A DNA stretch of 64,000 nt from Thalassomonas sp. RHCl1. Its GTDB lineage: Bacteria > Pseudomonadota > Gammaproteobacteria > Enterobacterales > Alteromonadaceae. This document shows, in pieces, positions 43,145-64,000 of the stretch. Where the stretch lies: the NCBI RefSeq assembly GCF_947387555.1, contig NZ_CANDNZ010000002.1, forward strand, positions 62,001 through 126,000, read 5' to 3'. The notes beneath the pieces are model-generated. The model searched no databases. It saw nothing but the letters and a program-made list of their open reading frames with translations, and was not told the origin of the DNA. A program made the translations under genes and the position numbers. Each line of letters opens with the position of its first letter. The first letter of the stretch is position 1.

Positions 43145-43342
43145 TTTTACCACTAAGGCTTGACCTGTTGCGGGTGAGCCGGCTGTTTTCTCGCCTTAAT
43201 CTGGTCTTTTTTAAACGCTTGCTGCTGCTAATTAAGGCAATCGCCACGGTTGGCTAAAAAATTTTTTACGCTAGCTTGTTTTGTGTTTATTTATCTATAA
43301 GATGTGCGTTTTATTGTTTTTGCGCTTATCTTTGAGGTCTTC

Positions 43343-46300
43343 ATGGGAAGTCTACGCCGTATTATCCTTATTCATACCCACTTACCCGGAGTGGTTGAAT
43401 TAGCCCTTGATGGCCATACCAATATCTGTGGCACCAATGCCTCGGGTAAAACCACCTTGCAGCGCCTGGTGCCGGTCTTTTACGGGGAGTTGCCTTCGAA
43501 AGTGGTACCGAAAACCCGTAAGAAATTTGATGATTTTTATCTGCCTTGTGATAACAGTTACCTGGTTTACGAGTACCAGCGCGAAGAAGGCAATATCTGC
43601 CAGGTGGTATTGACCAGCAAAGCCAAGGAAGGGGTGAATTATCGCCTTATTGAAGGCGCTTTTGCTCATGAACAACTGCTCCTGAAAGATAACCAGGGTA
43701 AAGTGAATGCCCTGAGCCAGGAGTTATGGCTTAAGCAATTAAAAGCGGCAGGCATTTCCTATTCCCATAAAATCGGTGCCACCAGCGAGTACCGGGCCAT
43801 CATCCAAAATGATGTCAGCATGATCCGCGGCAACTCCAAAGACGCCTTAAAGCTGCGCCAGTTAGCGGGGCGTTATTCCCTGGTTTCTCCGCGTCACAGG
43901 GTGCGCCATATAGAAAAACTGGTCAGTGCGGTGCATGCCAAAGAAGGCAAGATGGATACCTTGAAATCCATGCTGGCGGCGATTTTTGAAGAAGACGGTT
44001 TGGTTCAGCCCACCACCCGGGTAAAAAATACCAAGGCGCGGGAATGGATCAAGCAAATTCGCCAGTCGATGCGTTTGGAAGGTTTGCAGGCGGAGCAGGA
44101 TAAAATTGAGCTTCTGGCACAAAAGCTTAATGATGTCGAACTTAAACTGTTTCAGCTGCGCCCGTTATTAACCGAAGATCTCGGGGAAAATACCACCCAA
44201 AAGGCCGACGTTGAACAAGGTTTAGCTCAGCTTAAACAAAGCTTATCCCGGATTAAAGCCGAGTTTAACGACAAGGAAAACACCTTAAACAGCCGTTTTA
44301 GTGAAGTAAATGCCGAACTGGAAGTGATAGGCACCAGGCTCGATAACATCCAGCAGCAATATGACAGTTACCTTGACGGTGATATCGACCAGCTGTCAAA
44401 AGACAGTGAAAACTTGCCGTTATGGCGGGAGAACCTGCAACAGCAGCAGGAGCAGTACCAAATCTTGCTTGAGCAATATGGCGATCTGGAAAAGCAGCTC
44501 AATCAGCAAAAAATTACCCTCAATGAATCGCTGGAACGCCTGGCCCAGAAAAACCGAAATAAAATTAAAGCGATCGAAAGTGAGCGGGAAAATGTCCGCA
44601 ACAGTCAGCTCGATAAACAGTCGGCTTTTAATGATGATTATCAAAAACGCAGTGATGAGCTCAAACTCGGTTTTGATCAACAGTTACATCAGCAGCAGGA
44701 AATTATGACCCGCTTGCTGGTACAAATCGATAATGTCGGGCCAACCAGGCAGGAACAGGAAGACAGCCAGCTCGCCGATACCCGGCTTGATTTTGCCCAG
44801 GATAAGTGGCGTGAAGCCAGTAAAAGCAAGGAAAGGGCGCAGCGGGAGTGGCAACAGGCTCGCCAGGTACAGGATAAGGCACAAACCGTGCTGGAGCAAA
44901 GCCGGACTTTCCACCATAAAGCGCGCCAGGAATTACAGCAGCTCGAGCAAATGCTAAATCCGGAGCAGGGCAGTTTGCGTCATTATTTGCGCACTCAACT
45001 GCCAGGCTGGGAAAACAGCCTGGGCAAGGTTATCGATCAGGCTTTACTTGAGCGCAGCGATTTAAATCCTCAGCTTGCCCCCGAAAGCCAAGACGGATTT
45101 TTTGGCGTTAAGTTGGCGTTAGCTGTGGTCGATGCCCCTGAATATGCCCAGGATGAAATGGCGCTGCAAGAGCGCCTGACACAGGCGCAGAACCGGGTCG
45201 AGCAGGCGAAAACCGAGCAGGAGCAGGCGGAAAAAGCCCTGACCGCCAGCCATGAGCAGGTAAAACAGTTGCAGGACATAACCCAGCAAGAGCAGCGTAA
45301 GCTTGATGATGCCGATCAGGAAGTCTCTTATGCCCGGGAAAGTAAAAGCCGGTTGGCACAAAAACATAAAGAGGCGATCAGCGCCCGGCAAAGTTTATCC
45401 CGCCAGGAATTGGCGAGTGCCAAAGAGCGGCATCAGCAAATTTGCAACCAGCAGCAAAGCAGTTTGGCCAAGCTTAAAGAAGATCACCAACAGCAATTGC
45501 TGGAATTTAAAGCGGACTGGCAGGAGCAAATCGATCTCTTTAACGAACAGATCCATGAATTAGAAACCCAGGTGGATGATAAACGCGACAGCAACCGCGC
45601 CCAGATCAAACAGCTGGAGCAGGCTTTTAACCAGGAGCTGAGTTCCAAAGAGATAGATCCCAACACCCTGAAACAGCTGCAAGAGGGAATTAAAACCTTA
45701 AAAGCGGATATCTCTCAGGTATCCGGCCGTCAGGACGAACTTCGGGAGTACCGCAACTTTATCAGCCAGGAGTGGCAAAAACAGCGTCCCGGCTATCTGG
45801 AAAAAGAAATTGCCCTGAAATCCGATGCCGAGTCATTGCGTCTTGAACTGGATCAGCATAAAGCGGCTTACCGCAGCCGGCAACGGGAAATAGAATCACA
45901 GCGCCAGCAAGCCCAGCAGTTATTGCAGGAGTACACCGGCTTTATTACCCAGTTGCAGCCCCTGGTGAATAAACTTGCCGAGCTTGATTTTACCGCGTTA
46001 GAGCAAAGCAGTGACTTAAGTGCTCTTGAAGATTGTCAGGGCGGGGATCTCAGCGAAAGGCTGAGCCGCGCCCATCAGGGACTGGAGCAAACTGTTAAGT
46101 TCTCACGCGAGTTAAAAGAGCGTCTTAATGATTTTGAAAGCCAGCTGACCCGGGATGCCCAGGGGCAGTTTCTCGGCCTGATGGAAAGCGAATTTTCACG
46201 GCTCGAGCCCGGCTGTGATGTGCGTTTAAAACTGCCGGTTTTTGACGGCTTGTTGAAAATACTGGCAGATCAGCAAAGGCAAATACTGGAGCAGGGGGAA

Positions 46301-47092
46301 ACCATAGGTGGAGATCTGCATAAGTTTTTCACTGTCTTTAGCGACATCAACCGCCGTATTGCCGGCCAGAGCCAGCGCCTGACCCAGGCGGTTGCGGATG
46401 ATTTAAACCTTGACGGTATCAAACGCTCGGAAGTGAAAATTATCTCCACCGTGGACGAGCTTAACTTCTGGCAGCCGCTGAAACGTTTTGCCGGTTTGTT
46501 CGATGACTGGTGTTTATCCGGTAAGCAGCTGCCGGGTGATGATTATATCGATGCCTTGTCGGATGTGGTGGATCTGCTGCGCAGCGATGCCAGCTATTCG
46601 ATCGAATCCCTGTTAAGGCTGGAACTGCATTTAAATGAAGCGGGCACAGACTTAGTGATCAAAAATGACCGCCAGTTGCTGGAGTCTTCCAGTCACGGTA
46701 TGGCTTACTTAATCTTATGTAAGTTCTTGCTGGCTTTTACCCGGTTATTGCGCGGCGATGCGGATATTGTCATCAACTGGCCGATAGATGAAATCGGCAC
46801 CCTGGCATACCATAATGTCGAAAAATTATTCAGCGCCTGTGACAGCAATAAAATTGCCATCGTCGGCGCCTTTCCGAACCCTGAATCCGATGTTTTGACC
46901 TTGTTTAAGCACAGGTACCTTATCGATAAACAGAAAAAACGGCTGCAACGTATTGAGCCTAAATTAAGCCGTATTGCCGAGCGCCTTTCTTCGCAAAATA
47001 AGTCACAAAGCAGCGCCGGACAATTGAGTGCAGGACAAGCGCAACAAGCACAAGAAAACTTAGAAAATACCAGCCCTGAGGTGAACGCATGA
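43343..47092 (+). CDS. SMC-like ATPase, MukB/Mks(JetC)-type
   Basis: A 1249-residue SMC-architecture protein. The N-terminal ATPase half has Walker A GTNASGKT (30-37) after the strand HTNICGTN. Two long Gln/Glu/Lys-rich coiled coils (roughly 250-550 and 600-900) flank a central non-coil region, the probable hinge. The C-terminal half has an ABC-signature-like SSHGMAYLILCKF (1116-1128) and Walker B IVINWPIDEIG (1143-1153). ATG 43343 with TGAGG upstream is chosen over the GTG at 43304. The next gene overlaps by 4 nt and a kleisin-like gene follows. This matches the MukBEF/MksBEF/Wadjet plan. It is unlike the E. coli MukB N-terminus I remember, so it is probably a separate Mks-type family. Expected role: chromosome organisation or plasmid restriction. 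Confidence 0.75.
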   Translation: MGSLRRIILIHTHLPGVVELALDGHTNICGTNASGKTTLQRLVPVFYGELPSKVVPKTRKKFDDFYLPCDNSYLVYEYQREEGNICQVVLTSKAKEGVNYRLIEGAFAHEQLLLKDNQGKVNALSQELWLKQLKAAGISYSHKIGATSEYRAIIQNDVSMIRGNSKDALKLRQLAGRYSLVSPRHRVRHIEKLVSAVHAKEGKMDTLKSMLAAIFEEDGLVQPTTRVKNTKAREWIKQIRQSMRLEGLQAEQDKIELLAQKLNDVELKLFQLRPLLTEDLGENTTQKADVEQGLAQLKQSLSRIKAEFNDKENTLNSRFSEVNAELEVIGTRLDNIQQQYDSYLDGDIDQLSKDSENLPLWRENLQQQQEQYQILLEQYGDLEKQLNQQKITLNESLERLAQKNRNKIKAIESERENVRNSQLDKQSAFNDDYQKRSDELKLGFDQQLHQQQEIMTRLLVQIDNVGPTRQEQEDSQLADTRLDFAQDKWREASKSKERAQREWQQARQVQDKAQTVLEQSRTFHHKARQELQQLEQMLNPEQGSLRHYLRTQLPGWENSLGKVIDQALLERSDLNPQLAPESQDGFFGVKLALAVVDAPEYAQDEMALQERLTQAQNRVEQAKTEQEQAEKALTASHEQVKQLQDITQQEQRKLDDADQEVSYARESKSRLAQKHKEAISARQSLSRQELASAKERHQQICNQQQSSLAKLKEDHQQQLLEFKADWQEQIDLFNEQIHELETQVDDKRDSNRAQIKQLEQAFNQELSSKEIDPNTLKQLQEGIKTLKADISQVSGRQDELREYRNFISQEWQKQRPGYLEKEIALKSDAESLRLELDQHKAAYRSRQREIESQRQQAQQLLQEYTGFITQLQPLVNKLAELDFTALEQSSDLSALEDCQGGDLSERLSRAHQGLEQTVKFSRELKERLNDFESQLTRDAQGQFLGLMESEFSRLEPGCDVRLKLPVFDGLLKILADQQRQILEQGETIGGDLHKFFTVFSDINRRIAGQSQRLTQAVADDLNLDGIKRSEVKIISTVDELNFWQPLKRFAGLFDDWCLSGKQLPGDDYIDALSDVVDLLRSDASYSIESLLRLELHLNEAGTDLVIKNDRQLLESSSHGMAYLILCKFLLAFTRLLRGDADIVINWPIDEIGTLAYHNVEKLFSACDSNKIAIVGAFPNPESDVLTLFKHRYLIDKQKKRLQRIEPKLSRIAERLSSQNKSQSSAGQLSAGQAQQAQENLENTSPEVNA

Positions 47093-47709
47093 TAGAACAC
47101 GGCCCCTTATTAGAACGTTTACTGGCGGGACAAAGCATTTGCGCGGTGACCGATGAAGAAGCCTTTCGCCGTCTTCAGGATGAAGTCACCCGGGAAGAGC
47201 TTAACCATTATCTGCGTCCCCTTAACCGCCGCCTCGCCCAGAGCCAGGATGGCAGTGTCTTTTTCCTGGCCTACCAGGAATTAACCTCGGATGCCCGGGA
47301 GCACTTAAGCCGAGAGTTTAAGCAAACGATACAGTCTTTACTGCCGCTGCTGGAATGGATGCAGCTGGTACAGGAATGCCTGGGCCGGGACAGCGCCTTA
47401 AGCGCCGGCGATACTATTAAGCTGCAGGAGTTTGTCCTTAAAACCGAAGACAACCAGTCGCTGAGGTTACGCCTGGGTCAGCTGGCCAGTGATCGTTATT
47501 TTAAATCCGGCAGCGACAACCTCGATACCCAGTTAAAACTTATCTTTAAACGGCTTAAAGAAAACGGTTATTTATTCCAGCCCCATAAAGACAGGCAATT
47601 TTATGTGGTTACCGGAAAAATAGAGCAGCTGATTGAACTGGTGCGTTTTATTAAAGACGAAGAAAGCCTGCCGCTGGAACAAGAAAGCGAGCAGGAGTCT
47701 CTGTTTTGA
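47089..47709 (+). CDS. MukE/MksE(JetB)-like small SMC subunit
   Basis: A 206-residue mostly helical protein. DEEAFRRLQDEVTREELNHY, then YLRPLNRRLAQSQDGSVFFL and a C-terminal winged-helix-like segment DTQLKLIFKRLKENGYLFQP resemble MukE/MksE/JetB-type subunits. Those bind the kleisin and help load the complex on DNA. Its ATG overlaps the SMC stop (ATGA) and its stop overlaps the next start, so the three subunits are translated as a set. The assignment rests on size, gene position and helical pattern rather than strong motif identity. Confidence 0.6.
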   Translation: MIEHGPLLERLLAGQSICAVTDEEAFRRLQDEVTREELNHYLRPLNRRLAQSQDGSVFFLAYQELTSDAREHLSREFKQTIQSLLPLLEWMQLVQECLGRDSALSAGDTIKLQEFVLKTEDNQSLRLRLGQLASDRYFKSGSDNLDTQLKLIFKRLKENGYLFQPHKDRQFYVVTGKIEQLIELVRFIKDEESLPLEQESEQESLF

Positions 47710-49007
47710 GGTCGGCAGGTTTGCAAGAAAAAAGCTTAAATAGCAAAGACAGCAAGCAGTCACCCCAGAGCCGGTTACAGGCCCTTGGGGTTGAGCGTTT
47801 ATCCCTGCTGGGCAAATATGCCCAGCCGCTGATGCAGACCTATATCAGCGGCTATTTTGATGAAACCTCAGTCTCCGAACAGGCCCTGGATAAATTGATC
47901 AAGGCCAGGTTATTATGGCGTCCGGACGAGCAGGAAGCCTTATGCCTGCGCCCCGGTGTCAATGGCTTGATTGCCAGTCTTACCGAAGATGAGCGCAAGC
48001 GGCAGATCAATGCCGATATTGCCGGTCAGCTGGATCAAATCCGCACCCGGGTGACCCATTACCAGGATGCCCAATACCGGGGGGATTATGCCGCCAGCGA
48101 ACATCATTTCCAGTTATTGACGGAAAAAGTCCATGATATGACCGGGCAGTTCAGTGATGCTATCGCCAGTTTATGGAACCGGCTTAATTCTGATTTCGGT
48201 TTTGTCAGTAACTTAGCGGATAAGATCCGTGAAAATGAACTGGCGCAAAAACAATTAAGGCGTTTGCTCGACGGTTTTGAACTGATTGATTTTAATGAAA
48301 TGATCGAGCTGGCACAAAGCAACGGCGCTTTGCGTAAACTGCTGGTGAGCCAGTTGCAGGTGAGTATCAGCGATCATGCCAGTTCCTTGCTGGAAGTGCA
48401 AAAGCGCCTGGTTGAACTGATGGCAAGGTTCCGTCAGCAGCAGGAACGGGTGCAGTTAATCGCCAGCATGAGTGCTTTTTTAAAGCAGCATCCCAACTTC
48501 AGGGTCGGCGATTATGCCAACCGCTCCAAAGTCCCCGAACTGGTGAATCAGGCCAAACCAATTATTGCCAACGCCGCCATTGGCCTGGACCGCAGCAGCG
48601 ATACCGAAGTGTTGGCGGAGCTGGTACGGGAAATTCCGATAGAGCACCAGGGACAGATACAGATACCGCAAAGCGGCGGCGAGTTTGAGTTAGTGGATGA
48701 AAGTCTGCTGCAGGCGCGCGAGCAGGCCCTCAAAGAAGATGTTGAAAACTTTTTTATCGCTATACTGGATACTGCCCCGGGAGAAGACCGGGGGCTTAGC
48801 GCTTTGGAGTATTTACAGCAGCGGCAGCTGGACTGGGATGCGGAAATCTGGTTATTCCAGGTGATCGCTGAGTTTGAAGGGCTGGCAACGGAATTTCGCT
48901 GCAGTTTTATTCTGGAAAAATGTACCCGGGAATTAGATCCTTTTAACCAGGTAGATATTATTTATGATCTAAACTTGAGGGTGAATCAGGGTCTTGTGCT
49001 CAAATAA
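47706..49007 (+). CDS. Kleisin-like subunit of the SMC complex (MukF/MksF/JetA-type)
   Basis: A 433-residue protein starting at TTG 47706 that overlaps the preceding stop (TTGA), a sign of translational coupling. The N-terminus (LQALGVERLSLLGKYAQPLM) and ALDKLIKARLLWRPDEQEAL look like a winged helix. The middle is coiled coil (about 110-290), and the acidic C-terminus includes LSALEYLQQRQLDWDAEIWL and a second winged-helix-like end. That is the kleisin layout of MukF/MksF/JetA. The order SMC, small subunit, kleisin is the reverse of mukF-E-B and of mksF-E-B. No mksG/jetD-type nuclease gene follows; the next gene encodes an EAL-like/HDOD protein. Confidence 0.6.
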   Translation: MRSAGLQEKSLNSKDSKQSPQSRLQALGVERLSLLGKYAQPLMQTYISGYFDETSVSEQALDKLIKARLLWRPDEQEALCLRPGVNGLIASLTEDERKRQINADIAGQLDQIRTRVTHYQDAQYRGDYAASEHHFQLLTEKVHDMTGQFSDAIASLWNRLNSDFGFVSNLADKIRENELAQKQLRRLLDGFELIDFNEMIELAQSNGALRKLLVSQLQVSISDHASSLLEVQKRLVELMARFRQQQERVQLIASMSAFLKQHPNFRVGDYANRSKVPELVNQAKPIIANAAIGLDRSSDTEVLAELVREIPIEHQGQIQIPQSGGEFELVDESLLQAREQALKEDVENFFIAILDTAPGEDRGLSALEYLQQRQLDWDAEIWLFQVIAEFEGLATEFRCSFILEKCTRELDPFNQVDIIYDLNLRVNQGLVLK

Positions 49008-49028
49008 ACGGTTATTTATACTAATAAT

Positions 49029-49045
49029 ATGTTAATTATTAACAT
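49029..49045. promoter_or_regulatory. 17-bp perfect palindrome between the SMC operon and the HDOD gene
   Basis: ATGTTAAT-T-ATTAACAT lies 22 nt after the kleisin stop and 74 nt before the EAL-like/HDOD start. It is AT-rich without a T-run, so an operator is more likely than a terminator. Confidence 0.45.
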
Positions 49046-49118
49046 TAAATCAGCATTTAAAGTCAGCTGATGTGTGAATAATGGTTATAAATTTTCGTTG
49101 GGACCCTAGTTTAATCAG

Positions 49119-50333
49119 ATGCAAAGTACATATATTGCCAGACAGGCTATCTTGGACAGGAAGTCCAGAACCATAGGTTATGAATTATTATTCCGGGATA
49201 GCCAGGATAATAAGTTTCCAGAAATCGACCCGGATATTGCCAGTGCGAAACTTATTATCCAGAACCATATTCATGGTGATATTGCCGCACTGACCCTGGG
49301 AAAAACGGCTTTTATTAATTTCACCGAATATTATTTGATCAATAAATTTCCCCTGCTCTTTGATAAAAAAGCCATCGTCATTGAGCTGGTGGGACATGAA
49401 TTTCCCACCGAGCGTCTGATTAAAATCATTAAATATTATCATGAAAAAGGCTACCGGATTGCGCTCACCGAATATGATCTGGCTCAGCACTGGGACGTGT
49501 TGTTGCCTTATTTGTATCTGATCAAAATCGATGTGAAAAAAATCAATGTCAAACGCCTCAGGGCCCTGATTGGCAAAGCCCGTTCACATGGGGTACTGCT
49601 GGCGGCGGAAAAAGTGGAAACCCGCTATCAGCTGCAATCCCTGGCGGAAGTAGGCTTTAACTATTTCCAGGGGTTTTTCTATCATGAGCCGGAAATTGTT
49701 ACCGGGCAGACCCTGTCGCCGATCAAGGCACAAATGCTGAAACTGATCAGCGAAACCGCGAATACCCCGCTGAACTTTGATGCCATTGCCGAAATCCTCG
49801 CCCATGATGTCAACCTCAGCATAGGTTTGCTGAAAATGGTGAATAATGTCTCCACCGGTACTAAGGTGGCGATCACCTCGATCAAGCAGGCAGCGGCTTA
49901 CCTTGGCGAAAAGAAATTAAAGCAGTTTGTTGCCATTTTAGCCTTGTCTAAATTGAGTACCGAATGCACCGATGAGATTGCCAAACAATCCTTGATCACA
50001 GCCCGTTTGATGTCGGAGCTGGCACAAAAAAGTGATTTTAAGCAGGTGAAAGATTTTGCCTTTATCACTGGTTTGTTAAGCGCCATGGAGGTGATTTTGG
50101 CGATGCCTATGGCAGATATTTTACGTACCATGCCGCTGGCAAAACCGATAGAAGAGGCGTTAATGTACCGCAGCGGTTTATTGGGTAAGCTGTTATCTAT
50201 GACCAGCCATTATATTATTGGCGATAATGGCACCTTGATGGAAAAATTCAGCGATTATTCCCTGACCGCAGAACTGATCCAGGAGGAATTTGTTTCCGCC
50301 AGCAGGTGGTGCAGTGAATTAACCCAGGCCTGA
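49119..50333 (+). CDS. Degenerate EAL plus HDOD signalling protein (YuxH/CdgJ-like)
   Basis: A 404-residue protein. EAL-like domain: 1-200, with YELLFRDS replacing the EAL signature and ALTEYDL where an active enzyme has DDFGTG, so phosphodiesterase activity is unlikely. HDOD domain: about 205-400, with LKLISETANTPLNFDAIAEI and MVNNVSTGTKVAITSIKQAA typical of the family. Such proteins (CdgJ in Vibrio) affect motility or cell envelope without hydrolysing c-di-GMP. It follows the SMC operon but is separately spaced (112 nt). Confidence 0.88.
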   Translation: MQSTYIARQAILDRKSRTIGYELLFRDSQDNKFPEIDPDIASAKLIIQNHIHGDIAALTLGKTAFINFTEYYLINKFPLLFDKKAIVIELVGHEFPTERLIKIIKYYHEKGYRIALTEYDLAQHWDVLLPYLYLIKIDVKKINVKRLRALIGKARSHGVLLAAEKVETRYQLQSLAEVGFNYFQGFFYHEPEIVTGQTLSPIKAQMLKLISETANTPLNFDAIAEILAHDVNLSIGLLKMVNNVSTGTKVAITSIKQAAAYLGEKKLKQFVAILALSKLSTECTDEIAKQSLITARLMSELAQKSDFKQVKDFAFITGLLSAMEVILAMPMADILRTMPLAKPIEEALMYRSGLLGKLLSMTSHYIIGDNGTLMEKFSDYSLTAELIQEEFVSASRWCSELTQA

Positions 50334-61333: not shown

Positions 61334-64000
61334 TTAAGATATCACGGTTTTTTTCGTTGCGCCTTTATGCTGTTGTTGATCTTTGCTTAATGGCTGCGGG
61401 CCATTGTTTCTGGCCTTTTCACTGTGCTCGCAATAGGGGTAATTAGAGCAGCTATAAAAGTTGCCGTATCGTCCCGATCTGGCGGTTAATGTCCCTGTTT
61501 TACAGACCCGGCAATTTCTCTGGGCTAAAGGTGACCCGTTCTGGTCTTTACTTTCGGTACTCGTTGCAGATAAGGCATCGCTATTTGGGTTTTCTTTGTT
61601 TATCGGGTATTGATCTGTGATCAACTCCCGGATAAATTCACTGGGCCTTTGTTGGTCTGCCAGCAAATAAACATGATGTTTGCCCCGGGTCAGGGCGACA
61701 TAAAATAACCGGCGTTCTTCGGCATGGGCCAGCCCTTGACTGTTATCGCCTTCGAGCGGCAACAAGGCATCTATCAGCAAAGGTTCATTTTTTTCCGCCG
61801 GGAAGCCGTGTTTTCCCTGCTGTAAGCCAAGAACCAGGACGATATCGGCTTCCATGCCTTTACTGGCATGGATACTCAGTGCCTTGATTGTCAGCGTTGG
61901 AAATTGCTGTGCCAGGGGTTTTAAAGCGCTGTTATCCGGCAGCAGGTGATGATAGCGCGCCAGCAGCAATACCGAGCATGGATTTTTTCTGTCAAGTTTT
62001 GACTGCGTTATGCTGATGTCTTTTAAGATATCGGTCAGCAGCCTTAACAGCTTGCTGTTTTGATCTTTAAGGTTTTCTCCGCCGGGAAGCCCTGTCAGCT
62101 GGGTCAGGGTGACCGCAGGCGTTGTCACCCTGTTAAAGGTCGTCAGGTTTTTCGTCAATTGCGCCGGGTTTTTGCTGACAAAGCGGCTGGCAATATCGCA
62201 GATGCTGTTATTAAAGCGGAATGTTTTATCCAGTGTGGTGGTGCAGGTGTGACCAAAATAGGCGGAAAAGTGCCGGGTTAAGCTGACGTCCGAGCCGGCA
62301 AAGCGGTATATGGCCTGCCAGTCGTCGCCGACACAAAACAAGGAAGCACCTTTGACGGCGTCGCGCAGCGCCTTGAGCAACTTGGCCCTGGGGGCTGAAA
62401 TATCCTGAAACTCATCCACCATGATATAGCGCCAGGGAGAGGTAAACTGTCCCGACTGGATATAGGCGGTGGCCTTAGTGATCATATCGTCAAAGTCTAT
62501 TTGCTGTTGCTTGGCCAGCATGGCCTGATAGGCCTGGTAAAGGGGAGCGAGTAGCTGCAAGGTTAAATCTACCTGGCAGGAGCCTCCTTTTGCTAACGCC
62601 TCGGGCTTGCCGCTGAAAAAGGCCTTTATTTGTCCTGCCAGGCTGTTTTTATCGAAGCCGCCTGCCTTATATAAGGTCAGTAGTCGGGACAATGAGCCGG
62701 CAAGGTTATCAAGGGCGCCAGTTTCTCTGAATTTTGTCAGTAGCGTTTGCTTATCTAACGGGGAAACAGGCACGGCACTTTTTTTAAGTTGTTGTTGCAG
62801 CTCGCGGGTTAATTTCCCCTCGGTTAATAAGCTTTCATCCAACTCTATTAACCGGGTATTGTCGCTCTTATGGAGTTGGCGTTGCCATAAAATATCTTGC
62901 CGATAACTTTTGTTATCAATAAAAGCCGGGGTCTCTTGTTTTTGGTTAAGGTGGCGAAATTCTATGGTGATAGCATATTCGGGTAAATAAAATGCCGGTT
63001 TATAAGGGCGAAAATCCGGTGTTTTAACAGCAGAAGCCGGGGTGCCATGGTTATTGTTAGCGCTACTTTTTGGGGAAAAGTAGGCTTGGCGGTAGTGATA
63101 GCTTATCCCCATTTTGTGTAAATAGTCGGCGATGAGCAGTTCGCCATAACTGTGAACCCTATCTCCTGCCACAGAGATAATATGATTATCCCTGAGATAG
63201 GCAATATGCCCGGCCAATGTGGTGAAATCAAAAGCACTGCACTTGGGATAGCGATAGCGTTCAAGATATCGTAATACCAGGGCCGGGTAGTCGCTATGGA
63301 GGTTTGGCTCGGTTAACATTTGATTGAGTTGCTGCTCCAGCCAAAGCTGTCTGGCGCTTTCATCCTGGGCCAATGGCGTTAACCCCGGCGCTTTTCCCTC
63401 TACTTTGGTAATAATGGTCTGGCCAAGGGCATGAAAAGTTGAACTGCTGATATCCGTTCTGCCCAGACGTTGTCTGATCCTCTCATCCATCTCTTTGGCG
63501 GCTTTATTGCCAAAAGCCAGCAATAATATTTCTGTGGCGCTGGCCTGATGACTGTTCAGTAAATAACCGGTGCGTCCCACCATCACACTGGTTTTTCCGG
63601 TCCCCGCGCCCGCCAGTACCAGGTTGTTGTGCTCATCTGAAATACAGGCAATTTGTTGCTGGGGGGTTAACGGGTTCGCTTCTATCTGTTGGAAAAAATC
63701 ACCAAAGCGACTTTGCTGCGTTTTGATATATTCTTGCCGGTATTGCTGCAAGTCTTTTTCCGACCAGCGACTGAGGTGTTGCAGGCGTTTAAAGGCCTGC
63801 TCTTGTTCAGGGGTTAAGCCGTTTTTTGGCATAGTTTCCGGCCAGGGCTTTATCGCCGCCCGGGCAAGACTTTTGATGGTTAACCAGGTTTGTTGACGCA
63901 AATAACATTTTTCTTCCCCGGGATGTAATAACCGGTAACAGGCATTGGCGGCCTCTACCAGCTGCCGGCCATGGATACGGCACCAGGCCAGGGTTGCCTG
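61334..64000 (-). CDS. helD: DNA helicase IV-like protein (HelD) with inserted degenerate nuclease-like domain and Zn finger (5' end outside window)
   Basis: The frame is open to the right edge (33 more codons beyond the TTG at 63901), so the start is missing and 888 residues are visible. It is an SF1A helicase with Walker A GAGTGKT (98-104, counted from 63901), DEFQDISAPRAKLLKALRDA (motif II) and VGDDWQAIYRFAGSDVSLTR (motif III). HASKGMEADIVLVLGLQQGK and HAEERRLFYVALTRGKHHVY (motifs V, VI) follow; all are close to E. coli HelD as I recall it. About residues 251-370 form an insert reading SYGELLIADYLHKMGISYHY, like PD-(D/E)XK nucleases, but the expected Pro-Asp is Pro-Ala (Ala303). The C-terminus adds a topoisomerase-type four-Cys zinc finger (Cys797, 800, 818, 824). 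Confidence 0.85.
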   Translation of the reverse strand, partial: QATLAWCRIHGRQLVEAANACYRLLHPGEEKCYLRQQTWLTIKSLARAAIKPWPETMPKNGLTPEQEQAFKRLQHLSRWSEKDLQQYRQEYIKTQQSRFGDFFQQIEANPLTPQQQIACISDEHNNLVLAGAGTGKTSVMVGRTGYLLNSHQASATEILLLAFGNKAAKEMDERIRQRLGRTDISSSTFHALGQTIITKVEGKAPGLTPLAQDESARQLWLEQQLNQMLTEPNLHSDYPALVLRYLERYRYPKCSAFDFTTLAGHIAYLRDNHIISVAGDRVHSYGELLIADYLHKMGISYHYRQAYFSPKSSANNNHGTPASAVKTPDFRPYKPAFYLPEYAITIEFRHLNQKQETPAFIDNKSYRQDILWQRQLHKSDNTRLIELDESLLTEGKLTRELQQQLKKSAVPVSPLDKQTLLTKFRETGALDNLAGSLSRLLTLYKAGGFDKNSLAGQIKAFFSGKPEALAKGGSCQVDLTLQLLAPLYQAYQAMLAKQQQIDFDDMITKATAYIQSGQFTSPWRYIMVDEFQDISAPRAKLLKALRDAVKGASLFCVGDDWQAIYRFAGSDVSLTRHFSAYFGHTCTTTLDKTFRFNNSICDIASRFVSKNPAQLTKNLTTFNRVTTPAVTLTQLTGLPGGENLKDQNSKLLRLLTDILKDISITQSKLDRKNPCSVLLLARYHHLLPDNSALKPLAQQFPTLTIKALSIHASKGMEADIVLVLGLQQGKHGFPAEKNEPLLIDALLPLEGDNSQGLAHAEERRLFYVALTRGKHHVYLLADQQRPSEFIRELITDQYPINKENPNSDALSATSTESKDQNGSPLAQRNCRVCKTGTLTARSGRYGNFYSCSNYPYCEHSEKARNNGPQPLSKDQQQHKGATKKTVIS
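62792..63151 (-). other. PD-(D/E)XK-like insert in the helicase, catalytic Asp apparently lost
   Basis: This segment encodes helicase residues 251-370. Conserved landmarks of the insert family are GELLIADYL, ISYHYRQAY, a strand ending YLPEYAITIEF and SYRQDILWQRQL. The position normally Pro-Asp-Phe reads KPAFYLP, with Ala303 encoded by GCA. The Glu of the IEF strand is kept. The domain assignment is from memory of related helicases. Confidence 0.5.

Follow-up and report, generated by a model that had tools for sequence, protein, structure and literature searches.

The stretch of DNA analysed here, the window, comprises 64,000 nt of the Thalassomonas sp. RHCl1 genome (assembly GCF_947387555.1, contig NZ_CANDNZ010000002.1, forward-strand positions 62,001 to 126,000; 7.56 Mb in 39 contigs), and coordinates are window positions. 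Between 43343 and 49007 the + strand carries an operon of three open reading frames (ORFs) in the order SMC-type ATPase, small subunit and kleisin-like subunit, which corresponds to C-B-A in the lettering of the Wadjet system, JetABCD (Table 1). A preliminary description made from the letters of the window had proposed that the three genes are coupled by ATGA and TTGA overlaps and that the ATPase contains Walker A, signature and Walker B sequences. The ORF coordinates bore out both overlaps (47089-47092 and 47706-47709), and the three motifs were located at residues 30, 1113 and 1146. We took the ATG at 43343 as the ATPase start codon; an alternative GTG at 43304 would lengthen the protein by 13 amino acids.

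Table 1. Features of the SMC operon, in window coordinates. Nuclease-less rows are the 45 concatenated cores without a fourth gene in the tree described in the text.
Feature	Position	Strand	Basis or conservation
SMC-type ATPase (JetC/MksB position), DUF3584, 1249 aa	43343..47092	+	PF12128 full-length match
Walker A GTNASGKTT, residues 30-38	43430..43456	+	same or G-x-x-x-x-GK-[TS] variant in 45/45 nuclease-less rows
ABC signature region LESSSHGM, residues 1113-1120	46679..46702	+	SS-x-G in 45/45 nuclease-less rows
Walker B with D-E, WPIDEIGTL, residues 1146-1154	46778..46804	+	D-E in 45/45 nuclease-less rows
Small subunit, KITE (JetB/MukE) position, 206 aa	47089..47709	+	hhalign to type I JetB
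Kleisin-like subunit (JetA/MukF position), 433 aa, TTG start	47706..49007	+	
Empty site where relatives hold a JetD-like (DUF7281) gene	49008..49118	.	no remnant by tblastn or profile

Pfam places the ATPase in DUF3584 (PF12128), a family named as one of unknown function. The match, which is full-length, covered residues 8-1196 at 822 bits, against a curated cut-off of 31, and its E value of 9e-247 is far beyond chance; with the same layout recurring in 100 of 100 loci, the operon can be taken as real. The small subunit and the kleisin-like protein matched no Pfam family above cut-off. With NCBIfam the ATPase showed SMC-like stretches that all stayed below threshold, and PADLOC returned a JetC1 match alone (E 3e-4, 42 N-terminal residues), its Jet subunit models matching neither the small subunit nor the kleisin-like protein; the core of the operon is barely detected by these 2023 models.

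Profile alignments of the hhalign type were used to compare each subunit with known complexes. The N-terminal head of the ATPase aligned with that of JetC at 92%, and the C-terminal head aligned with that of MukB at 56% and not significantly with that of JetC (1%). The small-subunit family aligned colinearly with type I JetB over 162 columns (77%, E 2e-5), although only at 40% when a narrower sequence set was used, and its alignment with Escherichia coli MukE was not significant (1-2%). The kleisin-like protein gave no sequence-level signal in profile alignments with JetA or MukF; its structural model is predicted to adopt a kleisin-like fold, with MukF-containing entries (MukBEF/MukEF) as the best matches. 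Against PDB sequences, the small-subunit and kleisin profiles gave matches that were unrelated or confined to coiled coils. The MukB N-terminal domain PF04310 was absent from the ATPase and from the whole genome, and no canonical MukB was found elsewhere in it. The operon has the three subunit roles of MukBEF but differs from it in lacking PF04310 and in its reversed gene order. The earlier assignment to the Muk/Mks/Wadjet group stands.

DUF3584 was present in 75 of 197 genomes of the taxonomic order to which the strain belongs, with one match per genome. A draw across the phylum found it in 10 of 269 genomes, eight from the same order and two from one other family of the class. The ATPase, small-subunit and kleisin genes had the same order on the same strand in all 100 loci compared (L001-L100, L001 being the window), of which 31 were found through the ATPase (in the order sample, the best 30 of the 75) and 69 through the small subunit, several being cut at contig or locus ends. 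By comparison, the order was A-B-C in all 12 type I Wadjet loci whose cores could be read, with JetD following in 10; the single type II locus read large subunit, middle subunit, ATPase and JetD, its first two genes being assigned by place and size alone; E. coli has mukF-mukE-mukB. The reversed gene order noticed in the preliminary description is therefore a stable trait. Three further observations were made on these and other genomes. Strong MukB matches (69 genomes, E <1e-100) and DUF3584 coincided in one genome (G114) of the 197, a near-exclusion that we do not take as functional because it tracks family boundaries. In a Psychrobium metagenome-assembled genome (L032:3332-7000) the ATPase frame was broken into two adjacent ORFs, either by an assembly error or by a real break. 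Finally, at one type I Wadjet-like locus (L155:10259-13300, genome G225) a SNF2-type helicase gene overlapped the end of the ATPase gene at the usual place of JetD, in a genome without a listed JetD_C match.

When the neighbours of the orthologues were surveyed for a topoisomerase-primase-type nuclease, a JetD-like TOPRIM gene encoding about 290 amino acids was found after the kleisin gene in 59 of 89 loci. It nearly always followed directly; one small ORF intervened in L113 and several genes in L111. Ten downstream proteins were scanned against Pfam. Seven matched DUF7281 over cut-off, two of them with a sub-threshold JetD_C match in addition, and the other three were a DUF218 and a YkuD protein, both ordinary neighbours, and the L124 protein, which had no Pfam family and matched the fourth-gene family profile weakly (E 4e-4). 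PADLOC JetD models matched five of six fourth-gene proteins scanned, with a best E value of 2.8e-8 and no match for L125. Across the TOPRIM region the fourth-gene profile and that of type I JetD aligned at 95% (E 2e-8), and E-N and D-x-D were invariant in 34 fourth-gene sequences. Its only match among PDB sequences was a weak one to MksG (E 0.14), and two Acinetobacter plasmid annotations label the gene DUF2399. By sequence comparison, the fourth gene encodes a JetD-like TOPRIM protein. A search of 289 genomes with the JetD3 profile was uninformative, since it matched nowhere and the controls were likewise silent.

DUF7281 and the ATPase were tightly associated. Of 43 order-sample genomes with DUF7281 over cut-off, 42 also held the ATPase (Fisher 5e-21), which is 42 of the 75 ATPase genomes. 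In 40 of these 42 the DUF7281 match followed that of the ATPase by 2.2-2.7 kb and shared its strand; in the other two it lay 7.2 kb away and on another contig, respectively. The 33 ATPase genomes without DUF7281 by Pfam included one with the weak L124 match beside the kleisin gene (G088), one with a sub-threshold match elsewhere (G172) and two in which the locus was cut by a contig end or the match was partial (G104 and G017). Because the fourth gene is so common directly after the core, we conclude that the full form of the operon is C-B-A-D and that the window's copy is without D. Like type I Wadjet, this lineage combines an SMC ATPase, a KITE protein, a kleisin and a putative TOPRIM nuclease, its small subunit and fourth gene being profile-level homologues of JetB and JetD. 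It differs in the order C-B-A-D rather than A-B-C-D, in a nuclease of about 290 rather than about 400 amino acids, and in that the window's copy has no nuclease.

The absence of an adjacent nuclease, as first described, was confirmed for the window's copy. Neither JetD_C nor DUF7281 had a match anywhere in the genome, and tblastn and profile searches detected no remnant of the fourth gene in the 3 kb that follow the kleisin gene. The term nuclease-less does not apply to the lineage, however: because relatives often hold a JetD-like gene, its absence from the window's copy is a secondary state. The genome contains a single DUF3584 gene; it also encodes a canonical SMC, an 1171-amino-acid frame giving the best PF02463 match (E 1e-35).

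To follow the fourth gene through the lineage, 126 concatenated cores were placed on a tree with FastTree; 79 of them have the gene, 45 lack it and 2 are unknown because of contig ends. Two of the 79 reach a contig end with no more than the beginning of the gene, and one has the weak L124 match; two rows of the tree, L036 and L119, are from one genome. Presence of the fourth gene switches at least 28 times on this tree. If regain never occurs, 33 clades are wholly nuclease-less; we do not count these as 33 losses because regain in single lineages is possible. In five sibling groups the downstream genes were the same whether or not the fourth gene was present, the pattern expected of clean excision. 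Fragments of the fourth gene were found after the kleisin gene in five Rheinheimera-clade loci (L072, L077, L079, L080 and, by profile only, L071). The other 20 of the 25 nuclease-less loci tested, the window included, had no remnant by tblastn or profile, and 20 further nuclease-less genomes had all three core genes and no detectable remnant. General swapping of nucleases was considered and rejected: nuclease and core identities correlated with a rho of 0.90 (2850 non-independent pairs from 76 rows). There was also no replacement effector shared beside the nuclease-less loci; the downstream proteins scanned at three of them were DUF218, MaoC-like and dicarboxylate symporter proteins.

We then asked whether the core is maintained after loss of the nuclease gene. 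Nei-Gojobori estimates were made for 17 pairs, six in which both members lack the nuclease gene, nine in which both have it and two mixed. In the pairs lacking it, core omega was 0.009-0.036 where synonymous divergence (dS) was unsaturated; five of the six pairs gave a value, four of these overlapping within one Rheinheimera clade and one representing the small subunit alone. The nine pairs having the gene gave a core omega of 0 to 0.08 and a nuclease-gene omega of 0.09-0.33, and the mixed pairs a core omega of 0.009-0.07. In close pairs some of the measured selection predates nuclease loss, and the set consists of relatives of the window's copy, not that copy itself. All 45 nuclease-less rows retained the Walker A, SS-x-G and Walker B D-E motifs. 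Nuclease-bearing rows are at least 95% conserved at 93 core columns, and for 91 of these the residue is retained by 90% or more of the nuclease-less rows; a residue signature of nuclease loss was confined to one column. Repeated loss of the nuclease with the motor genes left intact suggests that the motor serves a purpose of its own.

Related operons were also found on mobile elements. The kleisin matched 9 plasmid records and the ATPase 32, and the ATPase matched 1 phage. Thirteen records (12 plasmids and the phage) were read. In 12 of these, which have all four genes, the small-subunit gene is followed in turn by the kleisin gene and the fourth gene. The remaining record, a Raoultella plasmid, keeps nothing but an ATPase fragment, and the same short match occurred in 12 further plasmid records (match only), which points to decay on plasmids too. 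The fourth gene was thus present in 12 of 12 mobile operons as against 42 of 75 genomes (Fisher p 0.003), a comparison between different lineages with a small sample. As a control, we took the 22 genomes in which type I JetA is full-length, and 19 also had a strong JetD_C match (p 0.011 versus 42 of 75); of the three without one, one has JetA at a contig edge. Two of the mobile copies were of separate interest. Dolichospermum phage Dfl-JY45 (PP438435.1, 209 kb; L205:5971-12326) carries a complete four-gene operon including the nuclease, with an ATPase 27.5% identical to that of the window, and on an Enterobacter hormaechei plasmid (L202:236-15203) a copy lies amid Tn7-like, WYL and CBASS-like genes, its ATPase gene split by an IS256-family insertion.

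In the tree the window's copy grouped with Psychrobium-like copies, apart from those of its own family. The ATPase was found in 7 of 14 sampled genomes of that family, all seven without DUF7281 over cut-off, and six of the seven copies form one nuclease-less clade that is older than the others. Constraining the window's copy to group with these six was rejected (AU test, p 4e-39, LG+G4; the group was chosen after an earlier tree), and its flanking genes differ from those of near relatives (compared by eye, the window not being in the clustering). Downstream, an EAL/HDOD gene (49119-50333) lies on the same strand 111 bp 3′ of the kleisin gene. Lateral transfer of the window's copy is the simplest reading, the alternative being differential loss of old paralogues.

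We observed the three genes, the JetD homology of the fourth gene, its repeated loss and selection on the core in relatives. The reading that we judge probable is that a C-B-A-D lineage of the Wadjet group repeatedly sheds its nuclease from chromosomes and that the window's copy is a nuclease-less SMC motor serving as an auxiliary chromosome organiser beside SMC. By homology, the kleisin would bridge two ATPase heads with a KITE dimer sitting on the kleisin, and ATP hydrolysis would drive DNA entrapment and loop extrusion by the kleisin-closed ring. Small circular DNA would be the substrate cut by the TOPRIM subunit in the full four-gene form. For the nuclease-less form the best analogy is MksBEF of Pseudomonas aeruginosa, which helps to organise and segregate the chromosome alongside SMC (PMC7485682; this and the other papers are cited for the portions available to us). 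What weighs against our interpretation is that the window's copy falls outside the six-genome clade as a lone nuclease-less tip, which tempers our confidence. The wider proposition, that within one order a Wadjet-type system has many times become a DNA-organising motor free of its nuclease, chromosomal copies deleting that gene and keeping the motor under strong selection while intact plasmid and phage copies keep the nuclease, seems to us possible, at somewhat less than an even chance.

An alternative is that the operon still restricts plasmids, the core silencing or mis-segregating small circles without cutting them or using a host nuclease in trans. The lineage is linked to defence, as the 12 mobile operons with small subunit and kleisin hold the fourth gene and at least one of them, on a plasmid, lies among CBASS-like and WYL genes; the window's copy, moreover, appears to have moved between lineages. 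We nevertheless consider continued restriction unlikely, because nuclease-less loci share no replacement gene and have the neighbours of their nuclease-bearing sisters, and because DUF7281 was found nowhere in 32 of the 33 nuclease-less genomes by Pfam (the sub-threshold match being in G172, and G088 having the weak profile match).

A second alternative is that the operon simply belongs, as a new member set apart by gene order alone, to the nuclease-less MksBEF condensins already described; this would overlap in function, but not in descent, with an auxiliary organiser that has shed its nuclease. MksBEF usually occurs alongside SMC or MukBEF, and several distant families have been reported (PMC7485682). 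The window's genome has a nuclease-free three-gene core with SMC elsewhere, as in P. aeruginosa, where a nuclease-less SMC core is found next to an ordinary SMC (PMC7485682, PMC10586767). The gene order differs, however, MksBEF being arranged as mksF-mksE-mksB (mksFEBG in PMC10123090), and since 42 of the 75 genomes in the window's lineage carry a JetD-like gene, its absence here is secondary; we regard plain membership as quite improbable. Least probable, and doubtful at best, is a decaying remnant in which the nuclease went first and the core follows: the losses are scattered over tips, the window included, and there are nuclease fragments in the five Rheinheimera-clade loci and ATPase fragments on the Raoultella plasmid and in the 12 like matches, but the ATPase motifs are whole in 45 of 45 rows, omega is very low wherever it could be calculated, and an entire six-genome clade in the window's family is nuclease-less.

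The preliminary description had offered an uncharacterised Mks-type condensin and a nuclease-less relative of plasmid defence as options. These are not exclusive: by descent the operon is a nuclease-less relative of a plasmid-defence-type system, and by analogy its working leans towards that of a condensin. Nuclease-less Wadjet-group complexes are already known, it having been stated that several members of the group are without JetD (PMC7617805), and derivation of MksBEF from JetABCD through loss of JetD has been proposed (PMC10586767). For JetD loss in Wadjet within the window's order, the accessible parts of the open-licence literature, supplements aside, gave PMC10586767 as the only relevant paper; in the same literature we found no mention of DUF7281 or DUF2399 and only single mentions of DUF3584.

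If the wider proposition is correct, this lineage would document, in natural replicates, how Wadjet-type defence can give rise to condensins such as MksBEF. The loss step looks replicated, with sister species that differ in having the nuclease at one shared chromosomal position, decayed pieces of the gene, and a core under purifying selection. Such matched pairs allow one to ask directly what role an SMC defence motor plays after losing the ability to cut. The operon also provides a context for DUF3584 and DUF7281, both of them families of unknown function.

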